Source: Candidatus Woesebacteria bacterium GW2011_GWB1_38_8b
Lineage (GTDB): Bacteria; Patescibacteriota; Microgenomatia; UBA8517
Direction: 5' to 3'
Assembly: GCA_000993115.1 (NCBI GenBank)
Contig: LBVN01000019.1
Coordinates: 1 to 32,905, forward strand
DNA: 32,905 bases
Both the position numbers and the translations under genes were made by a program. Of the stretch, positions 1 to 27,479 are shown piece after piece (the stretch's first letter is position 1; every line of letters begins with the position of its first letter). The notes below the pieces were generated by a model. That model worked only from the letters and a program-made list of their open reading frames with translations, searched no databases and was not told the origin of the DNA.

Positions 1-1665
1 GGTCACCAACCCGCCATAGAGGGATTGGAAAAATTCATGGACTATGGGTTTGTCAATTCGATTTTGAAATCAAACTATTTGCCTCCAACGGACATGTGGT
101 TTGCGGGCAAAGCTATAAATTATTATTGGTTTGGGCATTATTTAACAGCTTTTTTAACGCGTCTTATCAACATCCCCTCAGCAATATCATACAATCTGAT
201 GCTGGCAACAATAATGGGTTTGGTTTTATCGCAGTCTTTTTCTTTCATTTATGGATTTGTAAAAGTATTTAGCGGTAACAAATTAAGGCTCCCAATCATT
301 GCCGGGCTTATTTCGGCAATCATCCTTGTTTTCGCGGGAAATTTCCATGCACCTTACTACGTCTTGAAAAACGGAAGCGACAAATATTGGTACCCCGACG
401 CAACACGCTTTATAGGCTACAACCCCGATGTTAACGACAAGACTATTCATGAATTTCCGCTTTATTCATTTGTAGTGGCTGATCTTCACGGACATCTTCT
501 AAACCTTCCCGTTGTCATTTTATACATTAGCATTCTGGGTTCGTTTTTCATTACAACTAAAAGTTCGCTTGGACCTTCCCTCAATTTAATTCCTCTGGGA
601 TTTTTATTGGGAGTTAGCTTTATGACAAATACCTGGGATTTTGCAAATTACTTACTTCTTGCCGGAAGTGCTTTTTTTGTATTCTCTTTATCAAAAAGAA
701 AAGATTTGTTTAAATCGCTTTTCAATAGTGCATTATCTGGAATTGTGCTTGTTGTTATAGCAATAATAACAGCAGCTCCGTTTATTTTTAATTTTGATTC
801 AATAGCACAGGGTGTAAATCTGACTCATACACACTCGCTTTTGTGGCAGCTGGCAATTCTTTGGGGATATCCCCTGGTCCTGACTTTGGTTTTTTCCACC
901 CTCGTAATAAAAATAAAAAAGAATTTACTTCCAACCGACCTTTTTATAATCTCGATACTTGTAGCTTCATGGGTATTAATTATTTTACCTGAATTTATAT
1001 ATGTAAAAGACATTTATATTGCGTCCCACTACCGCGCCAACACAATGTTTAAATTAACTTACCAAGCCTTTGTCATGTTTTATCTGACTACCGGATATAT
1101 TATCTTCAGAACACTGACGTCAATTAAAAACAAAGCGGGAAAACTTATTGTGTCAATTTATTTTGCATCAATTTTAACGGCTGTTATGATTTATCCGTAT
1201 TACGCAATTAAATCTTATTACGGAAAGCTGGGAAGTTTTGAAACTCTAAACGGTGAGGTCTGGCTTACCCAAAAATACCCTGAACTGGCAGGTGTGATTG
1301 ACTGGTTTAGAAAAAACGTAAAGGAAAATACCGTAATTTTAGAAGCTCCGGGTGATTCATACACCCAATACAATGTTGTTTCATCTTACACAGGTCTCCC
1401 AACTGTGTCAGGGTGGTTTGTACACGAATGGCTGTGGCGAGGAGACGCCATTTATCCGCAGGAAAGGGTTGCCGATATTACAAATATTTACACATCCCCC
1501 GACTTAAACCTGACTTTGAGTGAAATTAGGAAATACAAAGTAAAGTACGTAATAATCGGTGCGTTTGAACGCGAAAAGTTTCCAACTATTAACGAAGAGA
1601 AATTCGACAAAATCGCGACGTTAAAAACTACAATCGGAAATACAAAAATATACGAAATAAATTAA
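1..1665 (+). CDS. DUF2298 / Chlor_Arch_YYY-type polytopic membrane protein, 5' truncated
   Basis: Frame is open from base 1 (GHQPAIEGLEKFMDYGF...), so the TTG at 25 is probably not the true start. Contains DMWFAGKAINYYWFGHYL and many TM segments. Confidence 0.8.
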   Translation, partial: GHQPAIEGLEKFMDYGFVNSILKSNYLPPTDMWFAGKAINYYWFGHYLTAFLTRLINIPSAISYNLMLATIMGLVLSQSFSFIYGFVKVFSGNKLRLPIIAGLISAIILVFAGNFHAPYYVLKNGSDKYWYPDATRFIGYNPDVNDKTIHEFPLYSFVVADLHGHLLNLPVVILYISILGSFFITTKSSLGPSLNLIPLGFLLGVSFMTNTWDFANYLLLAGSAFFVFSLSKRKDLFKSLFNSALSGIVLVVIAIITAAPFIFNFDSIAQGVNLTHTHSLLWQLAILWGYPLVLTLVFSTLVIKIKKNLLPTDLFIISILVASWVLIILPEFIYVKDIYIASHYRANTMFKLTYQAFVMFYLTTGYIIFRTLTSIKNKAGKLIVSIYFASILTAVMIYPYYAIKSYYGKLGSFETLNGEVWLTQKYPELAGVIDWFRKNVKENTVILEAPGDSYTQYNVVSSYTGLPTVSGWFVHEWLWRGDAIYPQERVADITNIYTSPDLNLTLSEIRKYKVKYVIIGAFEREKFPTINEEKFDKIATLKTTIGNTKIYEIN

Positions 1666-2144
1666 TTTACAAGCTTTCTTCCTATCTCACAGAATTGAAA
1701 GGTTCAAAGAATTGGAAATAAAAACAAGTTTTCTCAAAGCCCATCCTTCCTGAGTGAAACCGAATGGATAATCCCGTAATTTTTAATCAAATATTTACGT
1801 AACCCAACAACTCAAAATCACACTGTAAAGAAGATAAATAGATAACCAACTACCTAGGGTGGTGTTTGCAAAGATACTCAAACTATTACCTACCGGTAGG
1901 TAATAATAAAAAGTAGATTGTTCCTTATAATAGGCAATTTTAATTTATTATATTCACCCCCTATATAATATAGGGGAGAAATCAACTTTATATAACCATC
2001 GACACTACTGACTCAATATCTTTTACTTCTTTTTTTCAACCTCGCTACTTATAGTTATGCATAATGTACTAATTTTGATTTTGCTCAATAAGTCTCAACG
2101 ATTTTTAGTTAACCATATTCTTTTTTTAGATAATGTTTAGATAT

Positions 2145-2188
2145 GTACTTAATAAGTACTTGACAAGTCCTTATATAGATACTATTAT
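2145..2188 (+). promoter_or_regulatory. TA module 1 promoter with overlapping palindromic operator candidates
   Basis: TTGACA 2160-2165, 17-nt spacer, TATTAT 2183-2188. Inverted repeats GTACTTA-a-TAAGTAC (2145-2159) and ACTTG-a-CAAGT (2158-2168). Confidence 0.65.
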
Positions 2189-2194
2189 TTTCTT

Positions 2195-2458
2195 ATGTCT
2201 AGCGTACAAACAACACAAATCAAGGTTACATTATCTAACGAACTTTACTTACATCTAAAAAGTAAGGCGGAAAAACTCGGCCTGAACTTGGCGTCATATA
2301 TAAGACACCTTGTTATTAACGATGTCAAAGATATTGAGATTCCGGTTTTTAAAATGAGTGAGAAAAGAGAAAAAATAGCTCTGAAAGCATTAGAAGACTA
2401 TAAAGCTGGTAAAACCACTTCTGTAGAAAATTTTGACGACTACCTAGAAAACATATAA
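2195..2458 (+). CDS. RelB/RHH-like antitoxin
   Basis: 87 aa; N-terminal TTQIKVTLSNELYLHLKSKAEKLGLNLASYIRHLV is RHH-like; immediately upstream of a RelE-like toxin. Confidence 0.75.
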   Translation: MSSVQTTQIKVTLSNELYLHLKSKAEKLGLNLASYIRHLVINDVKDIEIPVFKMSEKREKIALKALEDYKAGKTTSVENFDDYLENI

Positions 2459-2467
2459 GTCTTTTAA

Positions 2468-2719
2468 ATGAAAATTAGGATTACGCCCCGTTTTGATATA
2501 AACCTTTCTAAGAAAAATCCCCAGCTTAAAATTAAAATTAAAAAGCAAGTTGAATTACTAATAATAAACTTACGACATCCTTCTCTTAAGCTTCATAAAC
2601 TTAGTGGCGATAGGGCTTCCGAGTATTCGTTTTGGATTGAAGGAAATTTGCGGATTACATTTATGATTGTCGATAATATTATATTATTCACGGACATCAT
2701 CACCCACGATGAATATTAA
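2468..2719 (+). CDS. RelE/ParE superfamily toxin
   Basis: 83 aa; 'HPSLKLHKLSGDRASEYSFWIEGNLRITFMI' pattern is typical of RelE-like mRNA interferases; 9 nt after the antitoxin stop. Confidence 0.75.
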   Translation: MKIRITPRFDINLSKKNPQLKIKIKKQVELLIINLRHPSLKLHKLSGDRASEYSFWIEGNLRITFMIVDNIILFTDIITHDEY

Positions 2720-2753
2720 TTCCGTTTCTAATAGGGAATAAAAAAAATAAAAA

Positions 2754-2807
2754 ATCGGAACTCTAAAAACCACAATCGGAAATACAAAAATATACGAAAT
2801 AAACTAG
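2754..2807 (+). pseudogene. Remnant/duplicate of the DUF2298 gene 3' end
   Basis: Encodes KIGTLKTTIGNTKIYEIN* (with the preceding aaa), nearly identical to the C-terminus KIATLKTTIGNTKIYEIN* of the gene ending at 1665; 32 nt are identical. Confidence 0.85.
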
Positions 2808-2828
2808 CCAATAAATTTCAATGAGACA

Positions 2829-3122
2829 TTATGGGAGCACGTCTATGTTTATGTTAATTGGTGTCCTTATAATATCGTAACAAGGATAAAGTTTGGCATA
2901 AATGAAAAATGCAGCTAATGAAACAGTTGCCATACCCAGACTAATTAACAAAAGCCTACCAACTCGTAACCACACCTTTTTAACAGTTTTCTTTTTTATC
3001 TTCAATATAAAACTAATTATTATCCCAGTAACCAAAGTTGTTAGTAAAATCCCCATTGAAACCAAAAAAGTCCAATATAATATCCATTGCCAGGCTGACA
3101 TTTCACAAAGACCTGAAAACAT
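2829..3122 (-). CDS. Small membrane protein of unknown function
   Basis: 97 aa with several hydrophobic segments; TATTAT 6 nt upstream of the ATG. Confidence 0.55.
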   Translation of the reverse strand: MFSGLCEMSAWQWILYWTFLVSMGILLTTLVTGIIISFILKIKKKTVKKVWLRVGRLLLISLGMATVSLAAFFIYAKLYPCYDIIRTPININIDVLP

Positions 3123-3256
3123 AATTTAATAATAACAGAAATGAGTTCAAACAATATCCATTACCATCCCCACATAATCAACTCAATAAGTGAGGTTGTC
3201 TAAATTTATTATGCACAAGAACAAGAATTTCGAAGCGGTTGCAAGATGTGCACCAA

Positions 3257-4357
3257 TTAATTACAGACCATAATTTCCAGTTTGCATTTAATGTTTTCCT
3301 GAAATGCGGTCCAGTTGTCGTCTTTTGGAACAAGAACATATAAATTTTCATATTTTGGATTACCGGTCACAATGTCAAATAAACTTTCGTCTAGACCGAA
3401 TTGATTAATGCTTCTCCTCGACTCATAAATATATCTGGAAATACTTGCGGCAGTAGAATCATCAAAATCCCTCTCAACTGCTGTGTTTACTACTCCCAAT
3501 AAATTCTTAATTTTTTTCGGGTTTAATAATATTTCTTTAGATAATAATTTTTCCTTTATTGCAGCAAAAATCTCCTGCTGTCTTGCACTTCTTGCAAAAT
3601 CGTCTCCCTCATCACCTTCGGCATGACGGCTTCTTGAATATTTTAAAGCTGTCTCTCCATTCATATGGATTATCCCTTTTTCAAAAGCAATTTTTTCATA
3701 TCGGCAGGAAAATGTCGTGTCGCCACCGCACTCGTCATTTTCCTTCCCGGGAATCGGAAACTTTTCATCCGTAAAACCGTTTTTAACCTGCACATCAACG
3801 CCACCAAGTACATCAATTATTTTTTTAAATCCATCAAAATCAATCGCAAGGGAATATTGAATAGGGATTCCCATTATTTCGGAAACTACGTTTTTAGCCA
3901 AAACCAATCCTCCCCCTTCGGTTTTTTTGTTTCCGTAATAATAAAGGCTATTAATTTTAGTTTTCAGGTTTTCAATCCAAATGTCCCTTGGGACAGAAAA
4001 TAAATAGGTTTTCTTTTTATCAACATCGATTGATAAAACTGTTAAAGAATCTGTCAAATCCGGCGCGTCATACCCTTCCCCTGCTTTTCCCAAAACCAAA
4101 ATGTTTATCCTGCCGTCAATAATTTTAATATTTTCGTAATTAGGCTTAATAAAGCCTTGCGCAATTTTTATACTGTTGCCAAAACGGGTATTTCGCAGTG
4201 CAAAAAAACTCAGGACTGCGACAATGCTTACAACCAAAACAACAACACCTAACATAAGTGTTCTTACAACCCAAACACGACTTATGATTTTCCGCTTTAC
4301 GCGCATAAACGTTGCCCGACTGATAATTGCGTTTCTCATTTTTAGAAAATTTTTCAT
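3257..4357 (-). CDS. LytR-CpsA-Psr (LCP) family protein
   Basis: N-terminal TM followed by GRINILVLGKAGEGYDAPDLTDSLTVLSID, FSVPRDIW, DFDGFKKIIDVLGGVDV, YSRSRHAEGDEGDDFARSARQQEI: canonical LCP motifs. Confidence 0.92.
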   Translation of the reverse strand: MKNFLKMRNAIISRATFMRVKRKIISRVWVVRTLMLGVVVLVVSIVAVLSFFALRNTRFGNSIKIAQGFIKPNYENIKIIDGRINILVLGKAGEGYDAPDLTDSLTVLSIDVDKKKTYLFSVPRDIWIENLKTKINSLYYYGNKKTEGGGLVLAKNVVSEIMGIPIQYSLAIDFDGFKKIIDVLGGVDVQVKNGFTDEKFPIPGKENDECGGDTTFSCRYEKIAFEKGIIHMNGETALKYSRSRHAEGDEGDDFARSARQQEIFAAIKEKLLSKEILLNPKKIKNLLGVVNTAVERDFDDSTAASISRYIYESRRSINQFGLDESLFDIVTGNPKYENLYVLVPKDDNWTAFQENIKCKLEIMVCN

Positions 4358-14870: not shown

Positions 14871-14984
14871 ATATAATCTTCTCCCAATTTTACAGCTCAT
14901 TTCAATTCTTTGGAATGAGATGCTACAAACTATTTCTCAATATATATTAATTTGAAATAGTTTCTATCAGCTGCATACGCTAAA

Positions 14985-15362
14985 ATGATACTGATGCGTC
15001 TAAAAAAGATTAATTTCGAACATTTAAAAAAGGCGAGAATTGAAAATGCAAAATTGCGAAAAAACATTGTTCCGGCGATTGTTCTCGTCTTGCTTTCAAC
15101 ATTAAGCCTTGTTTATTTGATTTTTAATGTTGACCCGGACAAGTTCTGGTCAAAACCATTGTTTTTCCTTTTGGTTTTTTTAGACTCATTTTTTATTTTT
15201 ACAATTATTTTCGCAAAAAAAAGGCGGGGGTTAATTTCTGCAATAATTATTTGCGCGACTCTTCTTCTTAGGCTGTTGGGTCAAACAAGTTTTTACTTCC
15301 CTTTGGTATTAATCGGTGTAGGATTTGTTTTTGAGGTAATTTTTACTCTAAAAAACCGTTGA
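14985..15362 (+). CDS. Small membrane protein of unknown function
   Basis: 125 aa with several hydrophobic helices. TAAAAT lies at the listed ATG, so a later ATG (14994) may be the start. Confidence 0.5.
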   Translation: MILMRLKKINFEHLKKARIENAKLRKNIVPAIVLVLLSTLSLVYLIFNVDPDKFWSKPLFFLLVFLDSFFIFTIIFAKKRRGLISAIIICATLLLRLLGQTSFYFPLVLIGVGFVFEVIFTLKNR

Positions 15363-15763: not shown

Positions 15764-15871
15764 CTTGGCTTCTTGGTTAAACAGCTTCAGGGTGGTAAAC
15801 TTCCAGGTGCTTACGCCTATGGTTTTTATCATTTCATAATTGATGAAGCCCAATATGATAAAATTGCGATT

Positions 15872-17243
15872 ATGAGCAAAAATTTTTATATCACAACAAC
15901 ACTGCCTTATGTAAACGCAGAGCCGCATATTGGATTTGCGCTCGAGATTGTGCAAGCAGATGTTATTGCAAGATATCATAAAGGCTTGGGTGAAAAAGTT
16001 GTATTTAATTTCGGCACAGACGAACATGGGCAAAAAATATATCAAAAAGCTCTGGAGGAAAATAAGGATCCACAAACGTACTGTGACGAATACGCAAAAA
16101 AGTTTGATGCGTTAAAAGTGGCGTTAAACCTTTCTTATACGCACTTTATCAGGACCACAGATCCTCATCATATTGTTGCAGCACAGGAATTCTGGAAACT
16201 TTGTTATAAGAACGGTTTTATTTACAAAAAGAATTATAAACAAAAGTATTGCGTCGGTTGCGAGCTGGAAAAAAGCGATTCAGAATTGGTTGACGGAAAA
16301 TGTCCCATTCACCCTTCTTCCGAAATCCAAACTTTCGAGGAAGAGAATTATTTTTTTAAACTCAGTGAGTTTCAAAATAAGCTTCTGAAATTTTATGATA
16401 AAAACATTTGTCACAGACGGTTTGCAGGATTTTTCAATTTCGAGGCTTAAGAAAAAAATGCCATGGGGAATTGATGTGCCCGGCGACTCCGAACAGGTAA
16501 TGTATGTTTGGTTTGATGCGCTTATTAATTATATTTCCACTCTTGGTTGGCCGGAAAATAAAGAGAATTATGAAAATTTTTGGCCGGGAATTCAAATTGC
16601 AGGAAAAGATAATCTACGCCAACAAACAGCAATTTGGCAGGCGATGTTAATGGCGGCAGGACTAGCTAACTCGAGGCAGGTCTTTATACACGGATTTATT
16701 AATGTCGACGGACAAAAGATAAGTAAAAGCCTTGGCAATGCCATAAATCCAATTGAATTGGTGGGAAAATACGGCACAGACGCAGTCCGTTATTTTATTT
16801 TGGCAAAATTAAATCCTTACGAAGATTCCGATTTTACATATCAAAAATTTGAAGAAGCTTATAATTCAGATTTGGCAAACGGGTTGGGAAATTTGGTTGC
16901 AAGAGTTGCAAAATTGGCAGAAAATTCAGGGTTTGAATTTGAGTTTTCAAAACCAAGCCATTATGAAAGAGTTGTCGATCAAATAAACAGTTATCGATTT
17001 GATTTAGCAATGTATGCTATTTGGGCAAGAATAATGGTATTAAATCAAGAAATTAACACCGAAGAGCCATGGAAAAAAGAGGGTGAAGAATTAAAAGAAT
17101 CACTATCACATATGATTTCCGAAATAAATAAAATTGCATACAATCTTAAACCCTTCCTCCCTGAAACCGCCGAAAAAATTGAAAAACAATTTTCAAGGCC
17201 AAAAATAAAAAGCGCAGAATCCTTATTCCCCCGCCTAAAATAA
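15872..17243 (+). pseudogene. metG: Methionyl-tRNA synthetase split into two frames
   Basis: Frame 1: MSKNFYITTTLPYVNAEPHIGFALEIVQADVIARY...KLLKFYDKN. Frame 2 (from about 16395): FVTDGLQDFSISRLKKKMPWGIDVPGD...YVWFDALINYIS...KISKSLGNAINP. Total length is not a multiple of 3. Confidence 0.88.
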
Positions 17244-23926: not shown

Positions 23927-23946
23927 GCTACTTTGAAGACAAATTA
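23927..23946 (-). repeat. Dispersed repeat copy R1
   Basis: + strand GCTACTTTGAAGACAAATTA. Confidence 0.95.
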
Positions 23947-23962
23947 AATTATACCGTAATAG

Positions 23963-24385
23963 TTATTCGCCTGAAACATTTAACAATAAATACTCTAAAT
24001 TTTCCTTCAGAAAATTAACCTCTTGTTGGGGGCCTATAAGAGAAAGCGCCTCCTCAATTGTATACCAACCGTACACCTCCTCTGCACCGTGGTGTTTGTA
24101 AGATTCACTTTTAAGCAAATAAAGGTGAATATCTTTTAAAACCTTTATCCCGTCCCTTTCAATACTAGGTCTAGTAACAATACCAAGTTTTTTAATAACA
24201 TGTAAATCAGTTAGTCCTGTTTCTTCCCGCACTTCTCTTATTGCCGCTTCTTCATGGCTTTCTCCTTCACAAACATGACCTTTTGGAAATGACAAACCAC
24301 CTTGTGGAAAAGTTATTAATAGAATTTTTATTTGTCCACCTTCGTTTTTAACTACAACCCCACCCGCAGATACAGCTTTTTTCAT
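23963..24385 (-). CDS. NUDIX hydrolase
   Basis: SFPKGHVCEGESHEEAAIREVREETGL NUDIX box. ATG 24385 (MKKAVSAGGVVV) preferred; TAAAAT is 7 nt upstream. Confidence 0.88.
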   Translation of the reverse strand: MKKAVSAGGVVVKNEGGQIKILLITFPQGGLSFPKGHVCEGESHEEAAIREVREETGLTDLHVIKKLGIVTRPSIERDGIKVLKDIHLYLLKSESYKHHGAEEVYGWYTIEEALSLIGPQQEVNFLKENLEYLLLNVSGE

Positions 24386-24422
24386 ATAATGGATTTTACT
24401 CTCAACCAACTTTAACAACAAG

Positions 24423-24986
24423 CTAACTGTAAATAACGACCCGTTTGTAATTTGGAAGAATTAAAAGAGGAATTTTTTCTTTATATTCCGAAAGTTCTTG
24501 GGTAATTTTGTAATCACCAGAAACATAATGGCAGAAAGTCTTAATGTTTAATATTCCCAATCCCTTCCCGATTTTTTGACTCATGTTTCCATAAAAATAC
24601 TTAGAGAGACAATTGGCCCCAGCCGATGAGCCACCAACAACTTTATTTTCCAATAACTTATCAAAATTATCGTATTTCGACAATTTTTCTACAAGTTTTT
24701 CCGTTGAGCCACCTCCTTCGAAAAATACAACATCAGCCCATTTAAGTTGTTTAATAAACTTGTCTTCATCCGCTAATTTGAAAACAATAGTTTTACCCGC
24801 GCAGTATTTTTTAAATAAAGCGGAGTGTCTTTGAAATTTGTCCAACACTCTATTCTCGTCACAGGAAAAACAATTAATCAGAAAGTTGATAGGCTTGTTT
24901 CTACCTGAAGTCATCTCTTTATAAAATCCGATATTGTCAGAGTTTTTATCCCCAAAATCACCTCCATGCAATACAAATTTAATCAT
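24423..24986 (-). CDS. Peptidase E-like (S51 / type 1 glutamine amidotransferase-like)
   Basis: VVFFEGGGSTEKLVEKL...VVGGSSAGANCLSKYFYGN. Confidence 0.75.
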   Translation of the reverse strand: MIKFVLHGGDFGDKNSDNIGFYKEMTSGRNKPINFLINCFSCDENRVLDKFQRHSALFKKYCAGKTIVFKLADEDKFIKQLKWADVVFFEGGGSTEKLVEKLSKYDNFDKLLENKVVGGSSAGANCLSKYFYGNMSQKIGKGLGILNIKTFCHYVSGDYKITQELSEYKEKIPLLILPNYKRVVIYS

Positions 24987-25014
24987 TGGGAAATTATAAC
25001 AGAAACCAAGACTG

Positions 25015-25034
25015 GCTACTTTGAAGACAAATTA
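25015..25034 (-). repeat. Dispersed repeat copy R2
   Basis: GCTACTTTGAAGACAAATTA; its TTA is the stop codon of the gene at 25032-25811. Confidence 0.95.
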
Positions 25035-25811
25035 TTTTATTTCAACTCTCTTTTTTGGTTGCCACCATGTGTCAAATTCCCTTGCTTTTTTAACTTCATC
25101 TAAGTCTAGTTCCTCATAAAGTATTTCCTTTCGATCAGTGCTAGCTTCTTTCAACACCCCTCTAATTGGGCTCACAATCAGTGATCTTCCATAGGAGTTG
25201 AACGATTTATTTAAATTACCTGACATTAAAACATATGCACGACTTGTAAAAGCACCGTAAACAAATAACGCCTTTACATATTCTTGAGTATTAATTTCTT
25301 TCCAGCCAATAGACCAAGTTGGTATACAAATTATTTCAGCCCCCAACGTGTTAAATTTGTCATACAAAAAGTGGGAATATTTATTAAAGCCATCTTTACA
25401 AATTAGCATCCCCAATTTGCCTATTTCGGTGTTTTTGATTTCCAAAGTCTCTCCCGAAACTATACCAATGTTTTCAACTTCAGGTTTGGCTGGATAAATT
25501 TTTCTATGCGACACAACTGATTTACCCTCAGGGGAAATAATATGACCCTGATTAAAAAATTTGCCCTTGTCTTTTGTATAAAAACTTGTCGAAAGAAATA
25601 TTTTATTTTTTTTCGCAATTTCAACCAATCTTGGCAAATAATTTACGTCTTTTTCTTTTAATTCTCCAACGTCTCCAACAGCGGTTTCAGGTGCAACGAC
25701 CAATTTTGCATTAGCCCATGTAGCTTGAGAAACCAACTCATCAAGTTTTTTAAAAGAAGCATCAGATTCTTCAGGAACCTCATATTGCAAAACCGCAACT
25801 TTTAGCTTCAT
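25032..25811 (-). CDS. Carbon-nitrogen hydrolase (nitrilase superfamily)
   Basis: AKLVVAPETAVGD, HRKIYPAKPEVENIGI, KLGMLICKDGFN, GAEIICIPTWSIG. Confidence 0.85.
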   Translation of the reverse strand: MKLKVAVLQYEVPEESDASFKKLDELVSQATWANAKLVVAPETAVGDVGELKEKDVNYLPRLVEIAKKNKIFLSTSFYTKDKGKFFNQGHIISPEGKSVVSHRKIYPAKPEVENIGIVSGETLEIKNTEIGKLGMLICKDGFNKYSHFLYDKFNTLGAEIICIPTWSIGWKEINTQEYVKALFVYGAFTSRAYVLMSGNLNKSFNSYGRSLIVSPIRGVLKEASTDRKEILYEELDLDEVKKAREFDTWWQPKKRVEIK

Positions 25812-25831
25812 ATCCTTAATTCTACTCTGAA

Positions 25832-25851
25832 GCTACTTTGAAGACAAATTA
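25832..25851 (-). repeat. Dispersed repeat copy R3
   Basis: GCTACTTTGAAGACAAATTA; contains the stop codon of the gene at 25849-26394. Confidence 0.95.
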
Positions 25852-26394
25852 TTCAATTGTGTAATCCCATCCTGGTTGCCAAGCATGCTTTTTTCTCCAA
25901 TCTTCCGCAAATGCCTGCTCCCAAGTTTTTCCTCCTAGTAAAACATCCAGTGCAAGTTGTGGTGCTTTATGGGCAACTATAGCTACATATTTACCTTCAT
26001 AATTTTGCCTTAGAAAACCCAAGAAATCAGCAATTCTTGCCTTTACGTCTTCATAGCTTTCACCGTTAGGAAACTTGTTTGTTACATTTTTTTCCTGAAG
26101 AGGCTCTACAATTTCGGATGGCTTTCCGTTAAGATCTCCATAATTGCACTCGCGAAGTCTTGAGTCTTCTACAATTTTTACACTGTCTCCAAAAGTAAGT
26201 TTAGCCGAATCAACCGCTCTTTTTAGGTCAGAACAAAACACCACATCAAATTTTTTATCACGAATTTGTTGTATAAGTTCAAGAGACTGTTTCTTTCCCA
26301 GATCAGAAAGTCCGACATCTTTCCATCCTGAAGAGATTTCCTCTTCGTTATCGGTTGTAGTCCCATGGACAAAATAGGTAATTTCTACTGACAT
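25849..26394 (-). CDS. Histidine phosphatase family protein
   Basis: ITYFVHGTTTDNEEEISSGWKDVGLSDLGKKQSLEL, VFCSDLKRAVDSAKL, ECNYGDLNGKP, VAIVAHKAPQL. Confidence 0.82.
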   Translation of the reverse strand: MSVEITYFVHGTTTDNEEEISSGWKDVGLSDLGKKQSLELIQQIRDKKFDVVFCSDLKRAVDSAKLTFGDSVKIVEDSRLRECNYGDLNGKPSEIVEPLQEKNVTNKFPNGESYEDVKARIADFLGFLRQNYEGKYVAIVAHKAPQLALDVLLGGKTWEQAFAEDWRKKHAWQPGWDYTIE

Positions 26395-26417
26395 CGATTG
26401 TATTCTACTGTCTTTTC

Positions 26418-26434
26418 ACTTTGAAGACAAATTA
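26418..26434 (-). repeat. Dispersed repeat copy R4 (17-nt partial)
   Basis: ACTTTGAAGACAAATTA; contains the stop codon of the toxin gene at 26432-26695. Confidence 0.9.
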
Positions 26435-26695
26435 TTTATAAAGTTTGCTGTGTGTGCCCAATAAATCAAAATAAACAATTTCTCCACTTTTTAATTCTCT
26501 AAAAACAGCTCTCCAATCTCCTGTTATGTTTATGCTTCTAAATCCTTTATATTTTCCTGTCAATGCATGGTTGTTAAGCGATGGATAAAATTTATCAACT
26601 AATAACTGCTCAAGTCTTGAATCAAAAGCTTTTCTTATTTTGAAGGGAGCTTTATCATAATTTTTCCCAAATTTCTTAGAAAATTTAACTTTCAT
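26432..26695 (-). CDS. RelE/YafQ-like toxin
   Basis: MKVKFSKKFGKNYDKAPFKIRKAFDSRLEQLL...HALTGKYKGFRSINITGDWRAVFRELKSGEIVYFDLLGTHSKLYK. Confidence 0.85.
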   Translation of the reverse strand: MKVKFSKKFGKNYDKAPFKIRKAFDSRLEQLLVDKFYPSLNNHALTGKYKGFRSINITGDWRAVFRELKSGEIVYFDLLGTHSKLYK

Positions 26696-26986
26696 TTAAA
26701 TACCTTCTCTTGGGATTATTAAGCCAATCAATCGCATCTTTAACGTTATCAAAGGAAGGGGAAACTCTACCTGCTTTTCTGTCCTCTTCAGATTCCTTAA
26801 GAGCCTGAATCATATATTCACTGGGATTTCTTCAGTCAAAGAAAAGTGAATAGTTTTAGTTTTAATCAACTGATTAAGATAGCCATTGATAAGTGAACTC
26901 AAGCTGAAACCCAAATCAGAAGCAATTTTCTGCGCCTGGCTTTTTACTTTCGCATTGGTTTTGATATTTATAACCGCTGTATTCAT
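26685..26986 (-). pseudogene. RelB/DinJ-like antitoxin with single-nucleotide frameshift (not in the ORF track)
   Basis: MNTAVINIKTNAKVKSQAQKIASDLGFSLSSLINGYLNQLIKTKTIHFSLTEEIP | SEYMIQALKESEEDRKAGRVSPSFDNVKDAIDWLNNPKRRYLNES*; frame changes near 26820; end overlaps the toxin ATG. Confidence 0.85.
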
Positions 26987-27022
26987 ATATACTTATTATA
27001 TACGTAGTATATACCGTGTCAA
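26986..27022 (-). promoter_or_regulatory. TA module 2 promoter/operator
   Basis: Minus-strand TTGACA (27017-27022), 16-nt spacer, TATAAT (26995-27000), 8 nt to the ATG at 26986. Inverted repeat TATATACT (26986-26993) / AGTATATA (27006-27013). Confidence 0.75.
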
Positions 27023-27042
27023 TAGATATTAGGAAACCTTAA

Positions 27043-27062
27043 GCTACTTTGAAGACAAATTA
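27043..27062 (-). repeat. Dispersed repeat copy R5
   Basis: GCTACTTTGAAGACAAATTA; contains the stop codon of the gene at 27060-27479. Confidence 0.95.
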
Positions 27063-27479
27063 TTCTAAAGACTCCTCAAACTTTTTATGAGGCGAGTCCG
27101 GCATGGTCTGAACTATTTCTAACTTATTTCCTTCAGGATCAAAAAGCCAAACATATTTATTATGATCTCTTGTGTCTAGAATATCGGAATCAAAAACCAC
27201 GCCTCTTTTTTCTGCATCAATTTTTAATTTCGCTAAATCGTCAACAGTAAAACAAACATGTCTTACTCCCAAACTTTTTTGGTCATCAAAAGCAGGTCTG
27301 TCTTCACCTCCTAAACAGATCTCAAGATATTGTCCCTCTGAAATATGAAGATAAACTATTCGCAAGCTACCGTCATCATTGTTTATCCTAAAAGCTTCCT
27401 GCAACCCAAGTCCTTTGCAATAGAAATCCAAAATATTTCCTATATCTTTAACCCTAATTGCTACATGTCCAAATTTCAT
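27060..27479 (-). CDS. VOC/glyoxalase-like protein
   Basis: KFGHVAIRVKDIGNILDFYCKGLGLQEAFRI...VRHVCFTVDDLAKL...VWLFDPEGNKLEIVQ. Confidence 0.88.
   Translation of the reverse strand: MKFGHVAIRVKDIGNILDFYCKGLGLQEAFRINNDDGSLRIVYLHISEGQYLEICLGGEDRPAFDDQKSLGVRHVCFTVDDLAKLKIDAEKRGVVFDSDILDTRDHNKYVWLFDPEGNKLEIVQTMPDSPHKKFEESLE

Follow-up and report, generated by a model that had tools for sequence, protein, structure and literature searches.

A toxin-antitoxin pair between two DUF2298 gene tails suggests homology-anchored gene addition at 3' ends in Patescibacteria

A toxin-antitoxin (TA) pair sits between the intact 3' end of a DUF2298 membrane-protein gene and a second, orphaned copy of that end. 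We assign a probability of about 0.6 to the reading that the pair is cargo that entered behind a conserved gene, at its 3' end, through one-sided, homology-anchored recombination. The scar belongs to a known but little-documented kind of gene addition, which is here recurrent in Patescibacteria. The window, meaning the whole stretch of 32,905 nt that was analysed, is contig 19 (C19) of a 904-kb genome in 33 contigs (a MAG), whose named relatives are Candidatus Woesebacteria MAGs. The locus contains the following features.

25-1665, plus strand: DUF2298 membrane-protein gene with intact C-terminus (Pfam PF10060, E 1e-83; open reading frame with its 5' end off the contig)
1612-1665, plus strand: tail copy 1, the end of the DUF2298 gene, closing with IATLKTTIGNTKIYEIN and the stop (repeat search, alignment)
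1666-2194, no strand: non-coding lead-in of the insert, with relatives found for the last ~50 nt only (the TA promoter region)
2195-2458, plus strand: antitoxin-like gene, RelB/ribbon-helix-helix-like (open reading frame, weak profile matches, homologue in G039)
2468-2719, plus strand: toxin-like gene of the RelE/YafQ superfamily (weak single-protein HMM matches, alignment profile)
2728-2753, plus strand: probable weak extension of the orphan tail on its upstream side, interrupted by in-frame stops (16 of 26 positions identical; chance about 0.1%)
2754-2807, plus strand: orphan DUF2298 tail (copy 2), closing with IGTLKTTIGNTKIYEIN and the stop, with no gene ahead of it (repeat search, alignment)
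2808-3256, no strand: further, probably non-native DNA, which would be older cargo (LytR or UvrD directly follows DUF2298 in most relatives)
2829-3122, minus strand: 97-aa open reading frame of unknown family within the preceding segment, with no homologue among the sequences compared
3257-4357, minus strand: LytR/CpsA/Psr gene, the native convergent neighbour (PF03816, E 3e-32; same neighbour in several relatives)

Results

The two tails are homologous ends of coding genes

The last 18 codons of the DUF2298 gene including the stop (1612-1665) recur at 2754-2807 with 47 of 54 nt identical, as the first-pass annotation had proposed, and the next-best match to 1612-1665 anywhere in the window, on both strands, reaches only 31/54. 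The 32-nt identical core that it described (1630-1661 and 2772-2803) is confirmed. The repeat search aligns 1586-1664 with 2728-2806 (79 nt, 80%, spacing 1142), and the best-matching part of the tail pair spans 53 nt at 90.6% identity (blastn E 2e-16). The codon differences are GCG/GGA (A to G), ACG/ACT, TTA/CTA, ACT/ACC, AAT/AAC and TAA/TAG, and they agree with the earlier description, as do the frame and the stop.

Seven nucleotides differ between the tails, changing one residue versus 4.3 expected under random substitution (18 codons, P = 0.003), and the similarity ceases at the stop codon, where one copy reads TAA and the other TAG. Because the differences are biased to silent ones and the likeness ends at the stop, the alignment indicates that both tails diverged while coding, and that one is the tail of a homologue and not a drifted duplicate. 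The tails would thus stem from two homologous genes. The first-pass annotation had likewise suggested a homologue as the source of one copy. A drifted single duplication is disfavoured, since replacing changes and likeness past the stop would then be expected.

Just upstream of the second copy, a fainter likeness to the gene with in-frame stops had been noticed, and we find it at 2728-2753 with 16/26 positions identical. This resemblance is probably real, if faint, because a match of this quality occurs in only 0.13% of in-gene 26-mers, and among the intergenic ones tested it does not occur at all. Near the insert junction (2727-2753), homology to the DUF2298 gene is only faint. A search of the window's own genome for further copies, with the region as query, found none, and IMG/VR gave no exact match to the 32-nt core. 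At the residue that differs (A in copy 1, G in copy 2), most relatives carry G; one residue is insufficient to name the native copy.

Relatives carry a single DUF2298 tail

We compared 12 DUF2298 homologues (L050-L061, 43-67% identity). All 12 show one DUF2298 tail, which bears out the expectation of a single 3' end in relatives, and none has a second DUF2298 gene or a clear tail behind the first. The next gene is a convergent LytR or UvrD in most of them, and one or more extra genes lie between DUF2298 and LytR in three (L052, L055, L057); those of L052 include a MazE/AbrB-PIN toxin-antitoxin pair. With LytR directly, UvrD directly, or cargo genes before LytR, the DUF2298 3' flank is, by this comparison of sequences, a variable spot. 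In several relatives one end of LytR, its start or its stop, lies no more than a few tens of nucleotides from the DUF2298 stop, so the non-native DNA in the window probably reaches ~3256; the 449 nt behind the orphan tail also look acquired, because the native gene order is restored only from LytR (3257) onwards.

A possible orphan DUF2298 tail in L052 (KVYKLTN before a stop, just ahead of the MazE/AbrB-PIN pair) scored at background level and is not claimed. A DUF2298-TA adjacency without an orphan tail, the donor arrangement, was found in none of the loci compared.

The TA pair shows no ends of its own

The antitoxin matches NikA-like PF21983 just below the cut-off (E 2e-5) and RelB_DinJ weakly, and it is 69% identical to the antitoxin of G039. 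The toxin gives weak single-protein HMM matches to YafQ and RelE_StbE, and its match to PF15738 (E 0.0015) is below the cut-off alone. A profile built from 8 toxin homologues finds the solved RelE-type toxins HP0892, HP0894, HigB and YafQ, with E down to 8e-9. In its antitoxin-first, small two-gene operon and its RelE-type toxin profile, the pair is thus predicted from sequence to resemble type II TA systems of the RelE/YafQ superfamily, from which it differs in single-protein scores under the curated cut-offs of the known subfamilies.

The closest relatives of the pair are in G012 and G039, with a toxin identity of 77-80%. They sit between other genes than the window pair, share 71-72% DNA identity with it over a stretch confined to promoter through toxin stop, and show no comparable flanking repeats. 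This confinement and the lack of such repeats led us to reject the TA pair as a self-contained mobile unit, and comparison with the closest TA pairs revealed no conserved ends. Carriage by a virus or plasmid was also rejected: besides the lack of the core in IMG/VR, the toxin has no match in phages and one weak match in plasmids.

These results divide the first-pass claim that a TA-only segment entered the 3' end of the gene in the manner of integrative elements, leaving the C-terminus intact. Addition at the 3' end stands, given the single tail in the 12 relatives. A TA-only integrative element is not supported, in view of the missing conserved ends, the missing recombinase and the varied cargo elsewhere.

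Two other observations concern the window and its genome. A perfect palindrome with ACCTACCGGTAGGT lies at 1884-1905 in the non-coding lead-in ahead of the antitoxin and has no match in its own genome besides itself. The metG gene (15773-17243) consists of two overlapping open reading frames of 225 and 282 aa, which suggests a frameshift near 16.4 kb, and serS (C1:66192-67348) is likewise split. The splits are either assembly consensus errors or real lesions.

Orphan tails recur behind other genes with other cargo

By scanning the flanks of TA loci we found a second case in G070. There, an adenylate-kinase-like gene precedes a TA pair, and after the pair the tail of the gene reappears as a 71-nt copy (90% identity) that stops at the stop codon.

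We then surveyed 2.35 Mb with 2327 ORFs from seven genomes of class relatives for sequences outside ORFs that repeat a gene's tail, head or middle on either side of that gene (score of at least 20). Tail copies downstream numbered 14, versus 1 for tails upstream, 1 for heads upstream, 2 for heads downstream and 0-1 for middles. With the contigs chosen for TA hits left out, the figures are 11 versus 0-2 in the controls. Reading hit by hit left about ten true in-frame gene-tail cases, the rest being low-complexity or domain repeats. The clear orphan tails are all short, about 30-80 nt; an intact gene stands at the border of every insert, with the homologous tail left over, and in the best cases the similarity ends at the stop codon. 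Pooled over 10 tail pairs, there are 33 silent versus 29 replacing codon changes. A neutral simulation gave 11.6 +/- 3.1 silent changes and reached 33 in 0 of 5000 runs.

The host genes, named by eye from sequence, include seryl-tRNA synthetase, phosphoglycerate kinase, DnaJ and a TrpR-like gene. The cargo is varied: a HAD-like gene plus thrS behind serS, single genes, TA pairs, and genes behind pgk, dnaJ and the TrpR-like gene. Judging from these cases, the orphan-tail architecture is neither unique to the window nor specific to TA pairs. With cargo so different among relatives, it appears to be neither TA-driven nor bound to one att site.

Some TA loci show other kinds of repeats. In G070 (L114:13147-13225 and 14932-15008), the TA insert ends on the right with 79 nt that match, at 91%, the tail and 3' flank of a gene lying 1.7 kb further downstream; the TA unit looks as though it once stood behind that gene. 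In G067:C8 (L021, about 19.9-22.2 kb), a TA pair lies between tandem, partly diverged paralogues (78% over 360 nt). The repeats flanking TA loci L029 and L016 looked low-complexity or fell in a reverse-transcriptase region, and were set aside as unrelated.

Empty sites and stacked cargo in sister species

Two species of the same genus, G007 and G039, can be compared at pgk. In G039 this gene overlaps the one that follows it, an arrangement that represents the empty site. The order in G007 is pgk, a 382-aa gene, the orphan pgk tail, a 278-aa gene and then the pgk neighbour of G039, so that the orphan tail lies inside the inserted DNA and not at its border. An orphan tail leading an older cargo gene is as expected if acquisitions were stacked. 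At another such pair of sites, the TrpR-like gene of the window runs straight into metG, and two cargo genes plus an orphan tail lie between them in G017.

The thrS gene between serS and the orphan serS tail of G039 is 51% identical to thrS of G007 and 63% to that of the window's genome, which belongs to another genus. It is probably foreign, since it is closer to another genus than to its own. The comparison of G039 with G007 does not single out the native tail, as both tails lie at about the genome-average distance from the sister species; the tails of serS, dnaJ and pgk, compared within the genus, give no distinction between native and imported copy either.

Stop-codon repeat arrays occur in the window and in relatives

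We also notice a different kind of repeat in the window. At 23927-27064, a 20-22-nt repeat, TAATTTGTCTTCAAAGTAGC on the minus strand, occurs in 5 copies (expected 0). At four of them (25015, 25832, 26415 and 27043), a minus-strand gene terminates with the TAA of the repeat; these genes encode a nitrilase, a phosphatase, a YafQ toxin and a glyoxalase. The fifth copy, at 23927, lies just past a NUDIX gene. No further copy was found in the window's genome. From its layout, this stretch looks like a single-gene cassette array.

The same site occurs as AATAATTTGTCTTCAAATTAGCTYC, with a 7-bp stem, in about nine copies in an island of G017 (C4:118844-128321; L183, L184), which has a nitrilase and a 94-aa membrane protein in common with the window's array. 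G031 (C2, C9, C14) has five copies. An integron-like or hairpin-marked cassette system is possible on this evidence; no integrase was seen among the G017 island genes listed. Near the same island (G017:C4:115799, 117513 and 117847; L183), a second repeat of about CCGCGGAGGAAATGGTTTC stands between or just behind genes and surrounds a RelE-type TA pair.

Discussion

On our reading, incoming DNA from a related bacterium would have carried a DUF2298 homologue, or its end, beside the TA genes, and would have paired by homology with the resident DUF2298 gene. Its other end would then have joined without homology, inside the last ~20 codons of the gene. This would leave the gene intact, with the new cargo behind it and then a remnant of homologous tail, and repeated rounds would stack cargo behind one gene, the 449 nt after the orphan tail being an older acquisition. 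Few tails exceed ~80 nt, presumably because recombination between longer repeats removes the insert. Homology-facilitated illegitimate recombination has been described in naturally competent bacteria (PMC3240628), and the window's own genome encodes a member of the ComEC family (PF03772, E 1e-46), a gene of the DNA uptake machinery. We infer the route, DNA uptake followed by such recombination, and likewise the stacking order in the window. One point against anchored recombination is the near absence of orphan heads upstream, given that the model favours neither end of a gene. Selection against parting a gene from its promoter could explain the missing heads; in addition, mechanical calling of start codons makes heads more difficult to place.

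Insertion with a long target duplication, in which the TA unit itself inserts, duplicates its target and the copies drift apart, is improbable, though it ranks first among the alternatives. A mechanism of this type was put forward for the restriction-modification genes of Helicobacter (Nobusato et al., 2000, cited by PMC1643837 and PMC2654758). In G070, the adenylate-kinase-like case likewise involves a TA pair, and its 4 replacing and 3 silent changes would fit drift. As those citing papers present it, the likeness lies in a selfish-type gene unit within a long direct repeat, without a transposase. The difference is that the copies here have diverged with silent bias, both in the window pair and pooled, and end at the stop codon instead of running past it, which marks them as homologues and not as a duplicated target; in addition, the cargo is not only selfish genes, and non-TA cargo behaves alike.

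Slightly less probable still is a site-specific integrative element, by which a recombinase acting in trans would insert a small element whose attP carries a replacement tail. The two tails would be attL and attR, with the 32-nt identity shared by an intact and a displaced gene end as the core, and the preference for 3' ends would be explained. The E. coli prophage e14 integrates in the 3' end of icd in this way, bringing a replacement end with mostly silent changes and leaving the displaced original end at the far border, and the architecture here matches. Unlike e14, the insert has no recombinase, there is no common attachment site, and the cargo is about 0.3-2.7 kb. No integrase lies in or beside the insert, neither of whose genes looks like a recombinase. 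Exactly two tyrosine recombinases were found in 5 of the 6 genomes checked, probably the housekeeping Xer pair, and none is on C19. Each case has its own gene and tail, the cargo is without common ends, and the close TA relatives lie at other loci without this site, which, as noted, is also absent from IMG/VR. The missing recombinase on the contig, the lack of a shared site and the G007 tail within its insert make such an element the less likely account.

Equally doubtful, in our estimate, is that Patescibacteria of this group have a dedicated 3'-end-directed process (a recombinase or a transcription-linked one) that places single genes behind intact genes. It would account for the orphan tails together with the stop-codon repeat arrays at 23.9-27.1 kb, and would show itself in the scarcity of orphan heads.

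A decayed tandem paralogue, i.e. a second DUF2298 gene once present here of which all but the tail was lost and replaced, is very unlikely: TA pairs between tandem full-length paralogues do occur (G067, L021), but the DUF2298 relatives lack a second gene, and the same odd decay would be needed at about ten unrelated genes. Least probable is an assembly artefact joining the sequences of two strains, since a chimeric join at the shared 32-mer yields a mosaic and not both tails in one contig, and the same structure occurs in the one-contig genomes G007 and G021, even if this is a MAG in 33 contigs whose consensus may be imperfect, as metG and serS look frameshifted.

Our findings suggest that new genes have repeatedly been slotted in at gene ends, probably through recombination anchored in the upstream gene, and that TA pairs could spread without being mobile by themselves. 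Although the genomes of Patescibacteria are very small, their gene content varies. Orphan tails are a simple, countable scar of single genes, TA pairs and even an aminoacyl-tRNA synthetase entering 3' ends without a transposase, and they make gene gain in small genomes open to survey by computer.

By analogy, the anchored addition proposed here resembles the displacement model for Rhs and T6SS genes, set at ordinary genes of Patescibacteria. For T6SS effector-immunity arrays of Vibrio cholerae, the proposed order is new module, displaced 3' remnant, older module (PMC5361080). Both have a homologous anchor in a conserved upstream stretch and a non-homologous other end; a new module is added, the 3' remnant of the older gene is shifted downstream, and arrays arise by repetition. 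T6SS and Rhs displacement exchanges the C-terminal part of the gene itself, or the effector, and brings in its toxin or immunity gene as cargo. Here, in contrast, the encoded protein stays the same, a housekeeping or membrane gene serves as anchor, the cargo is unrelated, and the tail left behind is only about 30-80 nt.
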